A stretch of 64,000 bases of DNA from Arenibacter antarcticus (GTDB taxonomy: Bacteria; Bacteroidota; Bacteroidia; Flavobacteriales; Flavobacteriaceae). Below the pieces are notes generated by a model. It had not been told where the DNA came from, searched no databases, and worked only from the letters and a program-made list of their open reading frames with translations. The stretch lies in the NCBI RefSeq assembly GCF_041320605.1, contig NZ_CP166679.1:2466001-2530000 (forward strand). The letters run 5' to 3'. The position numbers were made by a program, and so were the translations under genes. Below are positions 45,619-59,201 of the stretch, piece by piece; positions within the stretch are counted from its first letter, which is position 1, and each line of letters starts with the position of its first letter.

Positions 45619-48039
45619 ATGCAAAATTCTGTGATGGAGTTTATGTTTATTCTTATTAAATTGCAGGGTCAACATAAATGCCCTAAAGTGGGTTCCTACA
45701 GAATTTTGTTAAATAGACCTTTATTTTTCAAGTTTTTCACTCTTTTGTTCTTTCTTTTCTTAGGAAAGGGAACGGCTCAAGAGTATCATCTACTTTCTGA
45801 GGAGGATAAATGGAAGATAAGACTGCATTCCTATGTCTTGATCGATATCGATAAGATAAACTCCTCCAATATATCTAGTTTAATGCAAGGAGCCGCCCCC
45901 TTGGCAGTTTATATTCAGGAATATAAGGAGGCGTACCTTCCGTTGCTCAATCAACTGGACACTAAAAATAGAAGGATGTTGGTATTGGGGAAGGCCTACC
46001 TTGAAGGGGAGCCCTTTCCCGAAAATATAACGCAATTTGTATCCATGGATGTGGTGGACACTGTGCAATGGAATTGGAAAGTATTCCTAAAGGATTCGTT
46101 GCGATCTGTACCAAGTAAGGAACTGACTTTTATGCCGTTTGCCCATAAAGAAATAATAGGCGATAGTAGCATTGTAAAACTTTGGAAAAAAACGGGAAGG
46201 GTGCCTAATTTTATCCAAGTAGACCCACAGAATTTTTTATATACGGATAGTGTGGTGCAAAGGCTTAACCGAATAAAACGTGTTTTTGGAACGGTCAGGT
46301 CCAAAAATGGACTGTTAAATGGGGTAGGGTTTAAAAACCATAAAAACCTAAGGGTAGATGGTAATTTTAGTTTTCCTAGGCTTTCCAAGGAAGACTTGCC
46401 TGTTTTTATTCCGCATAAGGCGGGCTATTATTTCTCCCCCGATATTATTCGAACTACAGCCGATAATAGTGGGAACCTAAAGGAATTTATTGGTTTTCCT
46501 CTAGATCCTGAATTCGGAATCACGGATCATTTTTCGTTTGGTCCGATTATTAAAAACAATATCCGGAAAAATAATAGCGAACTAATTGTAAATAAAGTTG
46601 AACTAGTAGATGATCGGAGCCGTGGCAAGGTGGGTTATTTTGATAATGGCGCCTATGTAGATGCGGGATTGGATAGTAGAATGGCGTTGCAAGGCAGTTT
46701 TACAATTTCAGCTTGGATAAAGCCAACAGTCCTCAATAGAAACAATAGTATCTTAGGGAAGGGGGAAAGTTTTGTATTGAAACTACATGAGGGACTACTT
46801 ACTTTTACCATGGCCGATATAAAGGATTATATTTCCCCATCTTCACCAGTCCCTGTGAACGAATGGACGCATGTTGCCTTAGTGCATTCTACACTTAACG
46901 ATGACCTTTCATTTTTTATTAATGGGATACAGACCGATAAGATTCAATTGATTGAGGACTACGATACTTCAGAGTACGATTTGGTTATTGGGAGTAATTT
47001 GTGGCAAGAATTTTTTATAGGGTATCTGGATAATATTAAAATTTGGAATCGAGAGCTAAATCAGGAAGAGATCTTTAAAGAGTATGATACCACATCCCAA
47101 GGAGATGCTGTTGGCCTACATATTTTCCTTATCCCCTTAATTGGAGTTTTAACGGTACTAGTGCTATTATTGATACTTCATTTTTGGAGGAAAAGAAATC
47201 GGTTAAACGCTAATATCAGCAAGCCAATAGCCACAGCTCCGGTAAAATTGGAAGCTACCACTCCGGTAGCGGAAACATCGGAGTATGGGGAAAGGATACG
47301 TAGCTTTGGTCCTTTGAAAATAAGTGTTGCGGATGGTTCTGATATAGCAAAAAAGCTTTCTCCTAAACTTAAGCAACTCTTTCTAGTGGTGTTATTACAC
47401 AGTGTTGGGGGGAAGAAAGGGATCAGCACCAAAAAACTTACCGAATTTCTTTGGCCTGGAATGAGTTCCAGCAGTGCAAAAAACACTAGAGGCACTAATA
47501 TTCAGAACTTAAGGGCAATTTTGGCAGACTCCGCTTCGATCAGATTGATTTTTAAGGAAAAACTTTGGTTCCTAGAAGTAGGGGAAGACTGTTTTTGTGA
47601 ATATCAAGTAGTCCATAAGTATTTGGATTCTCTTGGTAAGGAGGATATCGAGATCAAGGAACTTGAAAGTCGGTTACCCAGTTTGCTCGAAATTATTAAG
47701 GAGGAACGCTTTTTGTCAAATACTGAGGATGCATGGTTAGATCCCTTTGTAGAAAAATTGAGCAATAGAATTCTGGAGTTTTGTCAGGGGATTGCTGCAA
47801 AACTTAATTTAGAGGAGCATAATGTACTGCTGCATGATTTAGCCTCCGTAATGTACATATACGATGATCTAAACGAAAATGCACTTCAGTTGAAATTGCA
47901 AATATTGATAAAACAAGGTAAATTAAGTACGGCACATTCCGTTTACGACAAATTTGCTAAGCTCTATAAGAAACTATACGGGGAAACTTACCCTATTAAA
48001 TTCGAGGATATTCTTGGTGATCCAAATGTCATATCTTGA
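45619..48039 (+). CDS. Membrane-anchored regulator: exported LamG domain, one TM helix, cytoplasmic winged helix and SARP-like activator domain
   Basis: About 806 residues from the ATG at 45619; ATGs at 45634 and 45643 and a TTG at 45577 are also possible. Residues counted from the TTG: a signal peptide/anchor about 45-68 (FFKFFTLLFFLFLGKGTAQ), an exported N-terminal part to about 340, a LamG/jellyroll domain about 355-495 (FTISAWIKP, NEWTHVALVHS, GYLDNIKIWNREL), a TM helix about 513-537 and a Pro/Thr-rich linker. Then comes a winged helix (575-668: KQLFLVVLLHSVGGKKGISTKKLTEFLWPG) and a helical BTAD-like region (670-815). The winged helix with activator domain is of the SARP/OmpR kind. It would sense a ligand, probably sugar, outside the inner membrane and act on DNA directly. 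The Gfo/Idh and DUF1080 genes follow on the same strand, 143 nt away. Confidence 0.75.
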   Translation: MQNSVMEFMFILIKLQGQHKCPKVGSYRILLNRPLFFKFFTLLFFLFLGKGTAQEYHLLSEEDKWKIRLHSYVLIDIDKINSSNISSLMQGAAPLAVYIQEYKEAYLPLLNQLDTKNRRMLVLGKAYLEGEPFPENITQFVSMDVVDTVQWNWKVFLKDSLRSVPSKELTFMPFAHKEIIGDSSIVKLWKKTGRVPNFIQVDPQNFLYTDSVVQRLNRIKRVFGTVRSKNGLLNGVGFKNHKNLRVDGNFSFPRLSKEDLPVFIPHKAGYYFSPDIIRTTADNSGNLKEFIGFPLDPEFGITDHFSFGPIIKNNIRKNNSELIVNKVELVDDRSRGKVGYFDNGAYVDAGLDSRMALQGSFTISAWIKPTVLNRNNSILGKGESFVLKLHEGLLTFTMADIKDYISPSSPVPVNEWTHVALVHSTLNDDLSFFINGIQTDKIQLIEDYDTSEYDLVIGSNLWQEFFIGYLDNIKIWNRELNQEEIFKEYDTTSQGDAVGLHIFLIPLIGVLTVLVLLLILHFWRKRNRLNANISKPIATAPVKLEATTPVAETSEYGERIRSFGPLKISVADGSDIAKKLSPKLKQLFLVVLLHSVGGKKGISTKKLTEFLWPGMSSSSAKNTRGTNIQNLRAILADSASIRLIFKEKLWFLEVGEDCFCEYQVVHKYLDSLGKEDIEIKELESRLPSLLEIIKEERFLSNTEDAWLDPFVEKLSNRILEFCQGIAAKLNLEEHNVLLHDLASVMYIYDDLNENALQLKLQILIKQGKLSTAHSVYDKFAKLYKKLYGETYPIKFEDILGDPNVIS

Positions 48040-48182
48040 TCTTGGGCATAAAAATCATCAGTTTTTTATATTTTTTAATAATATTACCCCATATATTACC
48101 CCTATTTTTACGCATTGTGGTCTTTCTTTGACCAAGTAAATAGCACATGTTCAAATAATTAATAGAAATAGTATAGGAATCG

Positions 48183-49451
48183 ATGAAGAAAAATTCAACA
48201 AGCCGTAGGGATTTCGTAAGAAAATCCATTGTGGCAGCTGCAGGTATCAGTATTATACCAAGACACGTTATGGGGGGGACTAACTTTATAGCTCCTAGTG
48301 ACCAATTAACAAAGGCCGTAATAGGAGTTGGGGGAATGGGTCAAGGACATTTAACCTATGAAGGCACTAAATTGTTGGCTATTTGTGATGCAGATGCCAA
48401 TCATTTGGCCAATACCCTAAAAAAAGTGGGAAGTGGTGTCACAGGCTATCGGGATTTCCGTGAAGTGCTACAGAGACCGGACATAGATATCGTTCATATT
48501 GCAACCCCACCACATTGGCACGGGTTAATGTCAATTATGGCCGCTGAAGCCGGAAAAGATGTATGGTGCGAGAAACCGATGACCAGAACCATAGGGGAAG
48601 GAAAGAAAGTGGTTGAGGCTATGCAGCAACACGGGAAAATGTTCCGTTTAAATACCTGGTTCCGTTTTAAAGATAATTTTTACGGAATGGGTACCCCAGT
48701 TAAAAAATTAAAGAAAGTAGTAGATAGCGGTGCCTTAGGGTGGCCGTTAAAAGTTACCATCAGTGGAGTTACCGGTTTCAATTGGAAATTCTATTGGGTA
48801 GGAAAGGAAAATTTAGCTCCACAAGCCGTACCACAAGAATTGGATTACAATATGTGGTTGGGACCTGCACCTGAGAAACCTTATCACCCACATAGGGTGC
48901 ACGGTACCTTTAGAGGGTATTGGGATTATGACGGTGGTGGTTTAGGAGATATGGGCCAACATTATATAGACCCTGTTCAGTACTTCCTTGGGAAGGATAA
49001 TACCAGCCCAGTAAAAGTGGAGGTTGATGCCCCAGAACAGCATTATGACGCTATTGGTACCTGGAGGAAAATTGTCTACACCTATGCAGATGGCTGTCAG
49101 ATTATATTGGATGGAGAAAACAAGGATAAGGATGCGGCTTATATAGAAGGGCCAAATGGAAAGATCTATAACGGTTTTAAATCCACTATTCCCAACATTG
49201 AGGGCTTAATCAATAGTATGCCCGATCCAGAGGAACAGATTACTGTTTTCTCCGAATCGGTAAAAACAAGGCAGAAATTTGCACTAAACGAGGAAAACGG
49301 ACATAGATCTGCTACCGTAGTAAATATGGGCATTATTGCACTTCGTTTAGGACGAACCCTAGAATTTGATCCTGTAAAACAGGAATTTATCAATGACGAG
49401 GAAGCCAATAGATTGATCGATCAGCCAATGAGATCCTCTTGGGCATATTAA
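48183..49451 (+). CDS. Tat-exported Gfo/Idh/MocA family oxidoreductase
   Basis: 422 residues. Twin-arginine signal (SRRDFVRKS, then VAAAGISIIP) at about 7-30, so it is folded with cofactor before export. Rossmann motif GVGGMGQGHL (about 50-59), and CEKPMTR (about 120) for the usual EKP of this family; the C-terminal part holds DYDGGGLGDMGQHYIDPVQYFLG, typical of the family. Gfo/Idh/MocA enzymes oxidise sugars or cyclitols with NAD(P). The stop is 21 nt from a DUF1080 gene, which fits a 3-keto-glycoside route in which this enzyme makes the C3 ketone. Substrate unknown. Confidence 0.88.
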   Translation: MKKNSTSRRDFVRKSIVAAAGISIIPRHVMGGTNFIAPSDQLTKAVIGVGGMGQGHLTYEGTKLLAICDADANHLANTLKKVGSGVTGYRDFREVLQRPDIDIVHIATPPHWHGLMSIMAAEAGKDVWCEKPMTRTIGEGKKVVEAMQQHGKMFRLNTWFRFKDNFYGMGTPVKKLKKVVDSGALGWPLKVTISGVTGFNWKFYWVGKENLAPQAVPQELDYNMWLGPAPEKPYHPHRVHGTFRGYWDYDGGGLGDMGQHYIDPVQYFLGKDNTSPVKVEVDAPEQHYDAIGTWRKIVYTYADGCQIILDGENKDKDAAYIEGPNGKIYNGFKSTIPNIEGLINSMPDPEEQITVFSESVKTRQKFALNEENGHRSATVVNMGIIALRLGRTLEFDPVKQEFINDEEANRLIDQPMRSSWAY

Positions 49452-49472: not shown

Positions 49473-52400
49473 ATGAATAATATATATAAAACTATAAGTG
49501 TGCTATTGTTGTTTGTAGGCGCACAAGTAATTAATGCACAGGACAACAGGACCCTAGACACCAAAGTTGCAGATGTTTTGGCGCAATTACCAACAGCGGA
49601 TCTGGGACATACCGATCGCCTAATGCAAGAGGTTATCGGATTAGGGGAAAACGGTATTTTGAAATTTACCGATATGTTGGTTCCCCTAGGAACAGGAAAC
49701 GATACCAAAGCTAGATACGCCATCAATAGCTTAGCAATTTATAACGGAGGATTGGAGTCTAAAATTCAAAATGGAGTAGTTGAAAACGCTTTGTTAAAGG
49801 CTTTGGATAAAGCATCGGACAAGGAAGTGAAAACCTTTCTTATAGACCGACTTATCTTTAGTGGAACGGATACTTCAATCTCAGCGTTAAGTAGCTATCT
49901 TCAAACCAGTGATATGTATAAGCCTGCCCTTGCAGCCTTAACTTCTATCGGTACAGATAAAGCCGCCAATGCTATTTTGGAAGCGGCAAAAGATGCGGAA
50001 ACAAATAAATTAGCAGATTTGATAGATGCCTTGGGTGTATTGAAATTTGCTCCTTCCGAGGCGGTATTACATACTGCCCTGACTTCCCCTTCCAAAGTGG
50101 TACAACGGAAAGCGCTAATGGCTATGGCTAATATTGCCAACCCTAATTCTTATGGGGAGTTGGAGAATTGGGCTTCCAAATCTAATTATCGCTTGGATGA
50201 AACCAACAGTATATTGGCATTTATACATTACGGGAATAGATTACAGGAAAAGGGCGATAAGGCTTTGAGTAATGATGTGGCCAAAAAACTGCTTAAAAAT
50301 TGTAAAAATGAAGATCAGTTACATTTTAGATCTGCCGGAGTGCATATCTTAAGTGAAAATGAAGGCAGTAGTATTACTAAGGTATTGCTAAAGGAGTCTA
50401 GAAATAAGAACATTGCTTATGTTGGTGCCGTATTGGATGCTGCTGGAGAAGATCTCTCTTCTGCAGAGGTGGCTAAATGGGCAAAACAGTATAAAAAATC
50501 ATCCGCGGAAACCAAGCCATTAATTGTTAGGATGCTTGCTAATAGTAAGGATGAAGCCGTATTTCAATCCGTAGTTTTAAGAGCGGTTAAAGATAAGGAT
50601 GTAGCTGTGCGTACAGCGGGAATTAAGGCGTTGTCTTATCAAGAGAAAGACAAGGCATTTCCAGTATTGTTCAGTAGTTTAAAAATGGCCAGTTCCCCAG
50701 AGGAGTATTTAGCCATTGAAGAAACCCTGTTAAGGTTGGGCAACGCAAAGGATAACCAGTTATTGGCAGATCAATTACCTACAGTTGGCGAGGATGCTAA
50801 GGTAGTGTTGGTAAATGTATTATCCGCTAGGGATGCCAAGAACCAGTTTAATACGCTATTGGAGCAATTGGGCAAAGGAAGTGAAAAGGTAAATAGTGCA
50901 ATATACAGTGCATTGCCATCCATAGCTTCGGATAAAGACTTAACAATTCTAATAGGTCTGTTGGATAAAACCGATACATCCGATCAGGTTGGAAATATCC
51001 AAAAAGCGCTGTTGGGTATTGTAAATGCCGGAAACGGTAAGTTCTCCAATGAGTTGTACAACGCTTATGGAGAGGCAACGGATAAATCTAAATTATTGCC
51101 GGTATTAGCTTCTTTAAGTAGCGAAAAGGCACTAGAACTGGTTTCCGACCAATTGTTAAATGGAAACGAAAGTGAAAGGGTGATTGCATTGAACGCCTTG
51201 GCAAATTGGAAAAATAACGATGCTATTCCATATTTGTTCCAATCGACCAAGAATGCAGTGGATGGGGAAATCAGGAAAAAATCTTTTGAGAACTACCTGT
51301 CTAAAGTGGTGCGGTCCGATTATCCAGCAGATCAAAAACTTCTTCTTGTAAGAAAGTTGATGCCAGAGGCAAAAAGTACTGTTGAAAAGAAACAGGTGTT
51401 GAGAGCGGCACAACGGATTAAGACCTTCCTTTCCTTGGTTTTTGTGTCCGAATACTTAAACGAGGAGGCGTTGTTGACTACAGCTTCAAATGCTGCCATA
51501 GCTATTGCACTTCCAACCCCTGGGGTAAAGGATGGTCTAAGTGGTGAAGTAGTGCGGGATATCGTTTCTAGGAGTGTAGATAACCTTACCGGTCCAGATA
51601 GTCAATATATCAAAATTGATGTAAAGGAGTTTTTAGATAAAATGCCCAATGAAAAAGGATTTGTATCCATTTTTAATGGAGTAGATTTTGATGGATGGGA
51701 AGGTTTGGTACAAAACCCGATTGCACGTTCTAAAATGTCTGCGAAAAAATTGGCTCAAGAGCAGGCCAAAGCCAATGCGCAAATGATGAGGGATTGGTAT
51801 ATAGAGGATGGTGTTATTGGATTTAAAGGCGAAGGGTATAATAATATTTGTACCGTAAAAGACTATGCCGATTTTGAAATGATTGTAGACTGGAAAATAA
51901 CAGAAGGAGGAGATTCTGGAATTTATTTAAGGGGAACTCCACAAGTTCAGATCTGGGACATTGCACTGGTTAAAGTTGGTGCCCAAGTAGGTTCTGGCGG
52001 ACTCTACAACAATCAAAAGCATGAGACCAAGCCTTTGGTAGTTGCCGATAACCCAATCGATGAATGGAACACCTTTAGAATCAAGATGATTGGAGATCGT
52101 GTTACTGTTCATTTAAATGGTGTATTGGTTACGGATAATGTGGTATTGGAAAATTACTGGGACCGCAAGCAGGCGATCTTTGCCAAGGAGGCCATTGAAT
52201 TACAAGCCCATGGAGAAGACCTAGGTTTTAGAAATATCTATGTAAGGGAAATTAGTTCGGGAGACGATCAATTGACCGAGGCTGAAAAGAAGGAAGGATT
52301 TAAATCCCTTTTGAATGGTAGGGATCTAGATCATTGGATTGGGAACAAGACCGATTATATCATGGAAAACAACGAATTGCTTGTACGTCCAAAACAAGGA

Positions 52401-52874
52401 GGTCATGGTAATTTGTATACTGCGGAGGAATTTTCGGATTTTGTTTTTAGGTTCGACTTTAAACTTACCCCAGGGGCCAACAATGGTCTAGGTATCCATG
52501 CGCCTTTGAAAGGAGATGTTGCTTATATGGGTAAGGAATTGCAGATTCTAGACGATACGGCAGATATCTATGCCAATTTAGAACCTTACCAATATCATGG
52601 CTCCGTTTACGGGATCATAGCTGCCAAAAAGGGAGCGTTAAATCCGGTTGGGGAATGGAATTCCCAAGAAGTAATCGTTAAAGGAGATGCTGTAAAAATC
52701 ACCCTAAACGGACAAGTAATCTTGGATGGGAATATGAAAGAAGCCTCTAAAAACGGCACTTTGGATAAGAAAAATCACCCAGGATTGTTAAGGAACAAAG
52801 GGCATATTGCCTTCTTGGGCCATGGCGCAGAATTGGCGTTTAGAAATATTAGAATCAAGGATTTGGCTAAATAA
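49473..52874 (+). CDS. HEAT-repeat protein with two C-terminal DUF1080 (3-keto-disaccharide hydrolase) domains
   Basis: 1133 residues. Signal peptide about 1-23 (VGAQVINAQ). Helical HEAT-like repeats fill about 120-640 (e.g. NAILEAAKDAETNKLADLIDALG, VVQRKALMAMANIANPNSYGELENWA). Two DUF1080 domains follow: about 728-925 (FVSIFNGVDFDGWEG, WKITEGGDSGIYLRGTPQVQIWD) and about 941-1130 (FKSLLNGRDLDHW, FDFKLTPGANNGLGIHAP, FRNIRIKDL). DUF1080 (PF06439) includes 3-keto-glycoside hydrolases. Both copies keep the NG-DLDxW entry and the Asp/Glu-rich core. Last gene of the unit; a terminator follows. Confidence 0.87.
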   Translation: MNNIYKTISVLLLFVGAQVINAQDNRTLDTKVADVLAQLPTADLGHTDRLMQEVIGLGENGILKFTDMLVPLGTGNDTKARYAINSLAIYNGGLESKIQNGVVENALLKALDKASDKEVKTFLIDRLIFSGTDTSISALSSYLQTSDMYKPALAALTSIGTDKAANAILEAAKDAETNKLADLIDALGVLKFAPSEAVLHTALTSPSKVVQRKALMAMANIANPNSYGELENWASKSNYRLDETNSILAFIHYGNRLQEKGDKALSNDVAKKLLKNCKNEDQLHFRSAGVHILSENEGSSITKVLLKESRNKNIAYVGAVLDAAGEDLSSAEVAKWAKQYKKSSAETKPLIVRMLANSKDEAVFQSVVLRAVKDKDVAVRTAGIKALSYQEKDKAFPVLFSSLKMASSPEEYLAIEETLLRLGNAKDNQLLADQLPTVGEDAKVVLVNVLSARDAKNQFNTLLEQLGKGSEKVNSAIYSALPSIASDKDLTILIGLLDKTDTSDQVGNIQKALLGIVNAGNGKFSNELYNAYGEATDKSKLLPVLASLSSEKALELVSDQLLNGNESERVIALNALANWKNNDAIPYLFQSTKNAVDGEIRKKSFENYLSKVVRSDYPADQKLLLVRKLMPEAKSTVEKKQVLRAAQRIKTFLSLVFVSEYLNEEALLTTASNAAIAIALPTPGVKDGLSGEVVRDIVSRSVDNLTGPDSQYIKIDVKEFLDKMPNEKGFVSIFNGVDFDGWEGLVQNPIARSKMSAKKLAQEQAKANAQMMRDWYIEDGVIGFKGEGYNNICTVKDYADFEMIVDWKITEGGDSGIYLRGTPQVQIWDIALVKVGAQVGSGGLYNNQKHETKPLVVADNPIDEWNTFRIKMIGDRVTVHLNGVLVTDNVVLENYWDRKQAIFAKEAIELQAHGEDLGFRNIYVREISSGDDQLTEAEKKEGFKSLLNGRDLDHWIGNKTDYIMENNELLVRPKQGGHGNLYTAEEFSDFVFRFDFKLTPGANNGLGIHAPLKGDVAYMGKELQILDDTADIYANLEPYQYHGSVYGIIAAKKGALNPVGEWNSQEVIVKGDAVKITLNGQVILDGNMKEASKNGTLDKKNHPGLLRNKGHIAFLGHGAELAFRNIRIKDLAK

Positions 52875-57384: not shown

Positions 57385-57464
57385 TTTTAAAATAATTAAT
57401 AATCGGGGTAGGGTATTTTAAAAGTTGATTGTTAAAGAGGTATAATACGAAAAACCAAATAGAA

Positions 57465-59201
57465 ATGAAAAAGCCGACTTTATATTTTTTATACACTTGT
57501 ACGCTTATGGTGTTCATTTGTCTTGGTGCTTGCCAGAAGGAATTTGAAGACCTGCCAGAACAAAATAATCAGGAAGCTATTAATGCTAGTTCTAATACGG
57601 CACAATTAATTAAAGGCGCTTCCTCAAAAGATGGTTCTTATGACAATATTGTGGATGGAGCCAGTTGTTTCTCTATCAACTTTCCCTATGTTGTAAATAT
57701 TAACGGCTTAAATGTTAATCTTAAGACAGTGAATGATCTGGAACTGATTAAAGGCCTATTGGGTGAAAACGATGATGATTTGGATATACGCTTTCCAATC
57801 ATCGTCACCTTAGCGGATTATAGTGAAATTGTCCTAACGGATGAGGACCAATTGGAGGAGCTTGTAGAAGCATGTCAGGTATTGGGTGATGAGGATAGTA
57901 TTGATTGTGTAAGCTTTATGTATCCTTTTAAAGTATTCTCTTTTGATATCACTTTTCAGCAAACAGGCAGTGTGTCCGTAAAGAATGATATGGAGTTAAG
58001 ACGTTATTTTGATAATTTGGATGATGATGACCTTATTAGCTTTCAGTTTCCAATTTCCTTGAAATTATATAATGACATTGAGTTTGTGGTCCATAATAAT
58101 GCAGAAATGACCGACGTTATAGAGAGCGCCAAGAAAAATTGTGATGATGATGATGATGATGACGAGTTTTCAAAGCAAGAATTGAATGCGTATCTAGGAG
58201 CCTGCCCCTTGTTAATGAAAGAAGTGATTGCCAATGGAAAATACCAGACTACCCAATACCTAGAAAACGTGATGAGGTTTGAGGCAGATGGTACCGTTGC
58301 TCTAAATAATAGTACGGGGAATACCGTAACTGGTAGTTGGAGTACGGTTAAGGTTGGCTCTAAGGTGAAATTGAAATTGGATTTTAATGAACTGGTAGAT
58401 TTATCTTTAGAATGGTTTGTATATGATATTGGAGGTGATAGAATAAAATTAATTGCCAAAGACGGAAATAGGATAATCTTGAAAAAAGGATGTGATATTA
58501 TAAATAATGATCCCGAAGTTTTAAGGGAGCTTTTAAAGGAATGTAGTTGGGTTATTAGTAAAGTGAAGGTAGATGATGAGGAATTGAAAAGGTTATTGGG
58601 TTATGAATTCATCATTATGGCAGATGGTGGGGCTACTATATCCAACGGAACTATCATCAAGGATGGAACTTGGGAAGTTGCCAGTAACTCCCAAGGACGT
58701 TTGGTTATGATGCTAGATATAGCAGATGAAACCGCCCTTAATTTTGAATGGTTGTTGTCTGACCTTGAAGATGAGCGCTTAGAGTTTAATATGGGTGACG
58801 ATGATTACGAACTTGTTTTAGAGAAAATCTGTACGGCTAATATTGCAGATGTCGATGCTGTTGAGATTAGGGATATTTTGAAGGTAGACAAATGGGTGGT
58901 GTCTAAATACTTGGATGATGGTGAAGACGAAACCTCAAATTATGCCAATTTCGATTTCACCTTTTCAGCCCTTGCGGTAGTAACCGTTTCTTCTAATGCA
59001 CTTCCCGTGCACTTAGGATTATGGAAAGTCATTAAAAATAGCGATAATCAGTTGAAATGCTATCTCAATTTTGGGTCGGTGGGTTCCTTGAAAGAGCTTA
59101 CGAATAATTGGAGGGTGGTTTCCTTCAGTGGTAACAGGCTAGAGTTAAGGGATAAAGACGACGATGGTAGTGCGAATATTTTAATTTTTGAAAAAAAATA
59201 A
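57465..59201 (+). CDS. Putative lipoprotein with duplicated N-terminal domains and tandem lipocalin-like repeats
   Basis: 578 residues from ATG 57465; a TTG at 57429 would add 12. Lipobox LGAC, Cys 23. Two related N-terminal repeats, about 68-136 and 148-226, both with C-x-S-F/I...YPF/FPY-x-V, LDD-type acidic turns, FPIxxxLxDxxEIV, and a closing Cys. A seven-Asp tract (about 227-234) follows. Then three lipocalin-like repeats of about 95-110 residues (starts near 247, 355 and 465), each with W-x-(I/V)-x-K, GxW-x-V, L-F/W-x-x-S/D-x-x-x-x-R-(L/I)-E/K. Divergent from the ECF sigma gene, suggesting a linked role, for example ligand binding at the cell surface. Function unknown. Confidence 0.75.
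   Translation: MKKPTLYFLYTCTLMVFICLGACQKEFEDLPEQNNQEAINASSNTAQLIKGASSKDGSYDNIVDGASCFSINFPYVVNINGLNVNLKTVNDLELIKGLLGENDDDLDIRFPIIVTLADYSEIVLTDEDQLEELVEACQVLGDEDSIDCVSFMYPFKVFSFDITFQQTGSVSVKNDMELRRYFDNLDDDDLISFQFPISLKLYNDIEFVVHNNAEMTDVIESAKKNCDDDDDDDEFSKQELNAYLGACPLLMKEVIANGKYQTTQYLENVMRFEADGTVALNNSTGNTVTGSWSTVKVGSKVKLKLDFNELVDLSLEWFVYDIGGDRIKLIAKDGNRIILKKGCDIINNDPEVLRELLKECSWVISKVKVDDEELKRLLGYEFIIMADGGATISNGTIIKDGTWEVASNSQGRLVMMLDIADETALNFEWLLSDLEDERLEFNMGDDDYELVLEKICTANIADVDAVEIRDILKVDKWVVSKYLDDGEDETSNYANFDFTFSALAVVTVSSNALPVHLGLWKVIKNSDNQLKCYLNFGSVGSLKELTNNWRVVSFSGNRLELRDKDDDGSANILIFEKK

Follow-up and report, generated by a model that had tools for sequence, protein, structure and literature searches.

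Introduction

Transmembrane one-component regulators are already known, including the SusR-like protein BT2160 beside 3-ketoglycoside genes (PMC10269533, PMC3878776), and this topology is not itself new. BT2160 (SusR4) of Bacteroides thetaiotaomicron forms part of the BT2156-BT2160 3-ketoglycoside cluster (PMC3878776, PMC11501099, PMC11300592). In this study, we analyzed a 64,000-nucleotide stretch of the Arenibacter antarcticus chromosome (contig NZ_CP166679.1, positions 2,466,001 to 2,530,000, forward strand; hereafter the window) and, within it, a gene for a predicted membrane regulator that combines a LamG sensor outside with a SARP-like winged helix and BTAD domain inside. We liken it to BT2160 by description, both being single-protein transmembrane regulators of the same phylum.

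The SARP activators AfsR and EmbR of actinobacteria share the winged helix and BTAD over the whole cytoplasmic half of this protein, and SARP promoters share tandem direct repeats with the 3' copy 8 bp from the -10/-7 element. The window protein differs from SARPs in its membrane anchoring through an N-terminal extracytoplasmic LamG sensor, in the 12-bp pitch of its predicted operator, in the Bacteroidota -7 box and in its predicted target in sugar catabolism. ToxR, CadC and the members of a survey of transmembrane transcriptional regulators (TTRs; PMC10269533) have in common with it a sensor outside, one transmembrane helix, an OmpR-type winged helix inside and no phosphorelay; unlike in ToxR and CadC, the winged helix lies here C-terminal of the transmembrane helix and is followed by BTAD, and the main text of the survey mentions neither BTAD nor LamG. 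The combination that defines a TTR, a DNA-binding domain and at least one transmembrane segment in one chain, is present by prediction. Bacteroidota hybrid two-component systems likewise sense carbohydrates in the periplasm within one chain, but they are defined by a histidine kinase and a receiver domain, whereas our Pfam scan found no kinase, receiver or AraC domain here; it is only in this sense that sensing without phosphorelay, as proposed in a first-pass annotation of this DNA, holds. A literature search restricted to open-licence papers found no transmembrane SARP in Bacteroidota. Judged from its sequence, the protein would work like a SARP and be built like a ToxR/SusR-type membrane regulator, and we found no described system with both properties in that literature.

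Domain architecture of the regulator

We consider it likely that this protein acts as a transmembrane SARP-like activator with the neighbouring periplasmic 3-ketoglycoside enzymes as its dedicated targets, binding a triple repeat upstream of their genes and recruiting RNA polymerase. Its gene and domains are as follows.

45706..48039, + strand: regulator gene, 777 aa, with probable start TTG 45706 (orthologue alignment and upstream stops)
45706..45780, + strand: signal peptide, residues 1-25, a hydrophobic N terminus ending GKGTAQ, at the same position in orthologues
45781..46605, + strand: uncharacterised periplasmic region, residues 26-300, an alpha/beta part and then a beta-rich conserved part (fold elements of the model)
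46645..47073, + strand: LamG / ConA-like lectin domain, residues 314-456 (Pfam Laminin_G_3 and Foldseek)
47116..47193, + strand: transmembrane helix, residues ~471-496, then basic residues (Kyte-Doolittle scan and model helix)
47194..47283, + strand: flexible cytoplasmic linker (low pLDDT at residues 499-523; variable in alignments)
47290..47580, + strand: OmpR-type winged helix, residues 529-625 (model; Foldseek AfsR/EmbR)
47599..48012, + strand: BTAD helical domain, residues 632-769 (model; Foldseek; sub-threshold Pfam BTAD)

When modelled alone with 32 relatives, the cytoplasmic half reached a pLDDT of 94.3 and a pTM of 0.88 and displayed the strand-helix-hairpin order of an OmpR-type winged helix, followed by helices, with the predicted recognition helix around KNTRGTNIQNLR; the motif KNTRGTNI was invariant across 23 aligned orthologues. 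A profile of the C-terminal half found no match among PDB sequences, and we therefore compared structures. Foldseek returned six PDB matches below 1e-3, all of them SARP proteins: the AfsR activation complexes 8hvr (1.3e-6, TM-score 0.64) and 8k60 and EmbR (2ff4 and 2fez) were the only proteins matched at this level. A single structural match spans the whole cytoplasmic half, with BTAD directly after the winged helix, and the SARP fold thus extends over the winged helix and long helical C terminus (residues 575-815 in the numbering of the first-pass annotation) that had been proposed from the letters. For the winged helix and BTAD, the evidence from predicted structure is strong and that from sequence alone is weak, Pfam at E<0.05 detecting BTAD in 10 and Trans_reg_C in 2 of the 32 relatives. 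The same SARP-like half is common to a wider family with kelch sensors, which is described below.

The exported half begins with a cleavable-looking signal peptide (MLNRPLFFKFFTLLFFLFLGKGTAQ). No Pfam match was found in residues 26 to ~300 (~275 residues), a region that the earlier list of domains had omitted while giving the signal, LamG, transmembrane helix, linker, winged helix and helical C terminus correctly; its N-terminal alpha/beta part is missing in the divergent regulators at loci L112, L113 and L116. The LamG domain passed the curated Pfam cut-off for Laminin_G_3 (1.4e-23; 84.2 bits versus 27.6), which was also matched in all 22 orthologues covering this region, and the top Foldseek matches were to the arabinanase AbnA, including its isolated domain 4 (5hon), a sugar-binding domain; the remaining matches listed were mostly general ConA-like lectin folds. 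An NCBIfam match to TafC was rejected (43.5 bits versus a cut-off of 410, spanning only the LamG part). LamG/ConA-like folds are not confined to sugars but also bind proteins, and the conserved region before LamG could hold a sensor site, so that the LamG part might instead bind a protein, the cell wall or a partner and report something other than sugar; we regard this as possible but rather unlikely, given that the closest solved domain lies in an arabinanase and that the predicted targets are sugar enzymes.

Hydropathy revealed a single internal hydrophobic segment (residues 466-496) with WRKRNR after it, as expected for a positive-inside boundary, and helix 471-499 of the predicted structure matches it; prediction thus agrees with the order of LamG outside, one transmembrane helix and linker. 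The full-length AlphaFold prediction, made with 23 homologues, had good domains, with a mean pLDDT of 79 and a pTM of 0.49. Other membrane-bound factors are known to be set free by membrane proteolysis, and a single transmembrane helix with a disordered linker would fit cleavage. Release of the SARP-like half by regulated proteolysis, a variant of the activator reading and compatible with it, nonetheless appears unlikely: the linker varies among the aligned proteins and shows no evident conserved site (no search aimed at cleavage motifs was made), and ToxR/SusR-type regulators act in place.

The regulator open reading frame (ORF) is real; all 17 other Arenibacter genomes carry the gene (50-67% identity), as does one further genus of the family sample, and it is single-copy in the window chromosome, one contig of 4.69 Mb. 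The end at 48039 given by the first-pass annotation stands, and its start at 45619 does not. Alignments of the window gene with its orthologues begin only at TTG 45706, and most orthologues have a stop codon directly 5' of the counterpart of this TTG; this makes it probable that the first 29 residues read from 45619 are not translated, and starts 45619 and 45577 were both rejected on these grounds. A short inverted repeat, CCC-N6-GGG, lies at window positions 45681-45692, ~14 bp 5' of the regulator start, and most Arenibacter orthologues carry CCC-N5-GGG in the same position; it is a possible operator or RNA hairpin.

A conserved cassette with a predicted operator

The two genes that follow were named as sugar enzymes on the same strand in the first-pass annotation, and Pfam agrees.

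48183..49451, + strand: predicted target gene 1, a Gfo/Idh/MocA oxidoreductase with a twin-arginine-like leader (Pfam 1.7e-147)
49473..52874, + strand: predicted target gene 2, a secreted HEAT-repeat protein with 3-keto-disaccharide hydrolase domains (Pfam)

The hydrolase matches 3keto-disac_hyd (PF06439) in two stretches (1.3e-79; 267 bits versus 26.8) and also HEAT_2. By inspection, both enzymes have export signals, an SRRDFVRK leader in the oxidoreductase and a hydrophobic leader ending NAQ in the hydrolase, so that the sensor and the enzymes would share the periplasm. BT2158 of B. thetaiotaomicron, a glycoside 3-dehydrogenase located in the periplasm, is required for growth on trehalose, leucrose and palatinose (PMC11300592), and BT2157, which belongs to the hydrolase family of target gene 2, is described as a 3-ketotrehalose hydrolase (PMC9007349). 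By analogy, the target pathway is likely a periplasmic route related to the BT2157/BT2158 3-ketoglycoside route.

In our genome collection, the order regulator, Gfo/Idh/MocA dehydrogenase and HEAT/3-keto-disaccharide hydrolase, all on the same strand, was found in 27 of 28 orthologous loci. A search from the hydrolase added three more divergent regulators in the same place, with 29-30% identity and without the N-terminal alpha/beta part. Besides the window, 30 of 31 loci thus carry the cassette, in line with the expectation that homologues, here those of this orthologue group, sit beside sugar-enzyme genes. Seventeen of these belong to the 17 other Arenibacter genomes, which are not independent because the wider neighbourhood is also conserved there; in the 13 further genomes, with otherwise different flanks, only the three cassette genes stay together (among them Lutibacter, Seonamhaeicola, Sunxiuqinia, a Prolixibacteraceae bacterium, Sediminicola and other Flavobacteriaceae).

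Between the regulator and oxidoreductase genes, in the region 48040-48182 that had been put forward as a target for DNA binding, lies a conserved tandem-repeat site.

48084..48090, + strand: predicted operator heptamer 1, TTACCCC
48096..48102, + strand: predicted operator heptamer 2, TTACCCC, at a pitch of 12 bp
48108..48114, + strand: predicted operator heptamer 3, TTACGCA, at a pitch of 12 bp
48123..48130, + strand: -7-like promoter element TTTCTTTG, 8 bp after heptamer 3, in a register kept in 31 loci

All 31 intergenic regions of the cassettes, the window included, contain TTACCC(C/T)-N5-TTACCCC with a looser third copy, summarised as TTACCCC-N5-TTACCCC-N5-TTAcnnn, at a pitch of 12 bp without length variation, even beside the regulators that are only 29-30% identical. 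The Bacteroidota -7 consensus is TAnnTTTG; TTTCTTTG fits it, the element takes the form TAnnTTT in L112, L113 and L116, and the match to the consensus is best when the spacer is exactly 8 bp long. SARP promoters have direct repeats with the 3' copy 8 bp from the -10 element and a pitch of 11 or 22 (PMC10936776). The 8-bp spacing recurs in the cassettes, and seven distant loci share this optimum on average; we use the name SARP-like because this distance agrees but the pitch does not.

In the whole 4.69-Mb genome, this locus has the only exact copy of the double repeat. A strict search for the triple repeat in 396 genomes of the order returned only the window and one match inside an ORF of another genus, which we took as chance. 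A whole-genome regulon beyond one site was rejected, as sites with at most two mismatches were no more frequent than those of a control pattern.

Eight genomes (L111 and L139-L145) have the enzyme pair without the regulator, and the repeat was found upstream of the pair in none of these eight, the best match having 4-6 mismatches in 14. Of these, L111 alone is closely related, the enzyme pairs of the other seven having diverged further (oxidoreductase 66-69%). The repeat and the regulator are thus co-present or co-absent in 39 of 39 loci (Fisher 1.6e-8, a p-value that overstates independence, since the loci are related by descent). This pattern bears on the idea that the repeat belongs to another regulator and that the LamG-transmembrane-SARP gene is a linked passenger with another target, as might be suspected from the far faster divergence of the regulator (37-67% identity) than of the enzyme (77-96%). 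Co-presence in 31 of 31 loci and co-absence in 8 of 8 argue against it, as do related repeats directly after distant family members beside unrelated genes such as those for a sulfatase or a TonB-dependent receptor, and we hold a passenger role to be very improbable.

Proposed mechanism

Domain order, SARP fold, conservation of the cassette and of the repeat, and absence of the repeat where the regulator is absent were computed; DNA binding, activation rather than repression, a sugar as the ligand and signal transfer across the membrane are what we infer. For the dedicated SARP-like activator, we propose that the exported N-terminal region and LamG read a carbohydrate-related signal in the periplasm, and that the single transmembrane helix and linker pass it to the cytoplasmic winged helix-BTAD module, ligand binding outside altering the dimer or the exposure of the module inside. 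The SARP-like module would bind TTACCCC-N5-TTACCCC-N5-TTACGCA (48084-48114), which ends 8 bp before the -7 box and would stand in for a -33 element, and the module would supply the polymerase contact that such an element would give. RNA polymerase would then transcribe the Gfo/Idh/MocA dehydrogenase and HEAT/3-keto-disaccharide hydrolase genes, whose products may oxidise a glycoside at C3 and then cleave the 3-ketoglycoside.

The repeats are immediately 5' of the promoter and probably overlap it, and some OmpR-type winged helices repress; a membrane-bound repressor that blocks the promoter until a ligand releases it would also suit this arrangement. The exact 8-bp distance to the -7 box, together with the AfsR-like winged helix-turn-helix and BTAD, corresponds to the geometry and fold of known activators, and repression seems improbable to us.

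Several observations weigh against a dedicated SARP-like activator. The BTAD score lies just under the Pfam cut-off (20.2 versus 22.1 bits, E 8e-4), and Pfam alone would miss the SARP-like half. The low full-length pTM leaves the arrangement of the domains uncertain, and the 12-bp pitch shared by all 31 cassettes departs from the 11 or 22 of streptomycete SARP sites. The Gfo protein falls far under the equivalog cut-off of NCBIfam BT_2158_fam (7e-47; 160 bits versus 750) and is a related superfamily member only. The single locus that breaks the cassette rule, L081, has the regulator but neither enzymes nor repeat, and such a repeat is missing from the vicinity of roughly half of the distant relatives examined. 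At L081:8390-10729, the LamG-transmembrane-SARP orthologue is 40% identical to the window protein.

If the proposal is correct, an activator fold known mainly from actinobacterial antibiotic regulation has become, in another phylum, a membrane receptor made of one protein. Within ~7 kb, the locus brings together the predicted sensor, operator, promoter and target, which makes transmembrane activation by a SARP fold directly testable, and it also offers access to how bacteria sense substrates of the recently recognised 3-ketoglycoside route of glycan breakdown.

Related regulators in Bacteroidota

The same transmembrane, winged helix and BTAD half is also joined to kelch sensors, in a family present in ~2-3% of sampled genomes (12 of 395 in the phylum sample and 7 of 395 in the class sample). 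A motif model trained on the LamG cassettes alone was run on distant loci of 17-19 kb. In 6 of 10 such loci (L088, L089, L090, L092, L093 and L095), the best site of the whole locus was on the strand of the regulator, 12-107 bp beyond its stop codon, with copies that mostly read TTAACCC; the chance expectation is ~0.4% per locus. No such repeat was found near L031/L087, L091, L096, L097, L159 or L160, and L094 had only a weak GTAACCT pair. At L161, which was found later and lay outside the training, the repeat again stands downstream of the regulator stop: L161:6878-10983 encodes a double-LamG-transmembrane-SARP regulator with three tandem copies (TTACCCT, TTACCCC and TTACCCC) ~35 bp after the stop, and a sulfatase gene comes next.

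On balance, we lean toward the view that Bacteroidota hold a scattered and as yet undescribed class of membrane-anchored SARP-like regulators with exchangeable periplasmic sensors (LamG, double LamG and kelch), each steering the next gene via a shared operator code, tandem TTA(A/C)CCC at a pitch of 11-12 bp and ~8 bp from a -7 box. Such a class would add a further type of glycan-responsive regulator beside SusR, hybrid two-component systems and extracytoplasmic function (ECF) sigma/anti-sigma pairs, and Pfam-based surveys would mostly miss it, since its DNA-binding half falls short of the cut-off. The operator code might also serve to find the targets of related receptors, such as the sulfatase gene in L161 and the TonB-dependent receptor gene in L090.

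An Arenibacter kelch-transmembrane-SARP paralogue (L031:6477-15014; also L032, L033 and L087) is convergent with GH92, GxGYxYP and SusD genes; in the stretches compared, no motif was conserved across three species at this paralogue and its GH92/SusD locus. At L091:1315-11473, a kelch-transmembrane-SARP gene lies upstream of genes for an ECF sigma factor, a FecR-like protein and large SusC/SusD-like proteins, an arrangement that would stack two transmembrane signalling systems. Unannotated zinc-ribbon-like peptides of 39-53 aa (CPHC...NALRCKWCG) come after kelch-transmembrane-SARP genes and their TTAACCC repeats at L088:9887-10030, L089:9615-9731, L092:8484-8326 (- strand) and L093:9480-9629, and this conserved small protein is a possible regulator target. 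Within the window itself, positions 57429-59201 encode a 590-aa protein that has no Pfam match and is kept beside this region in Arenibacter.
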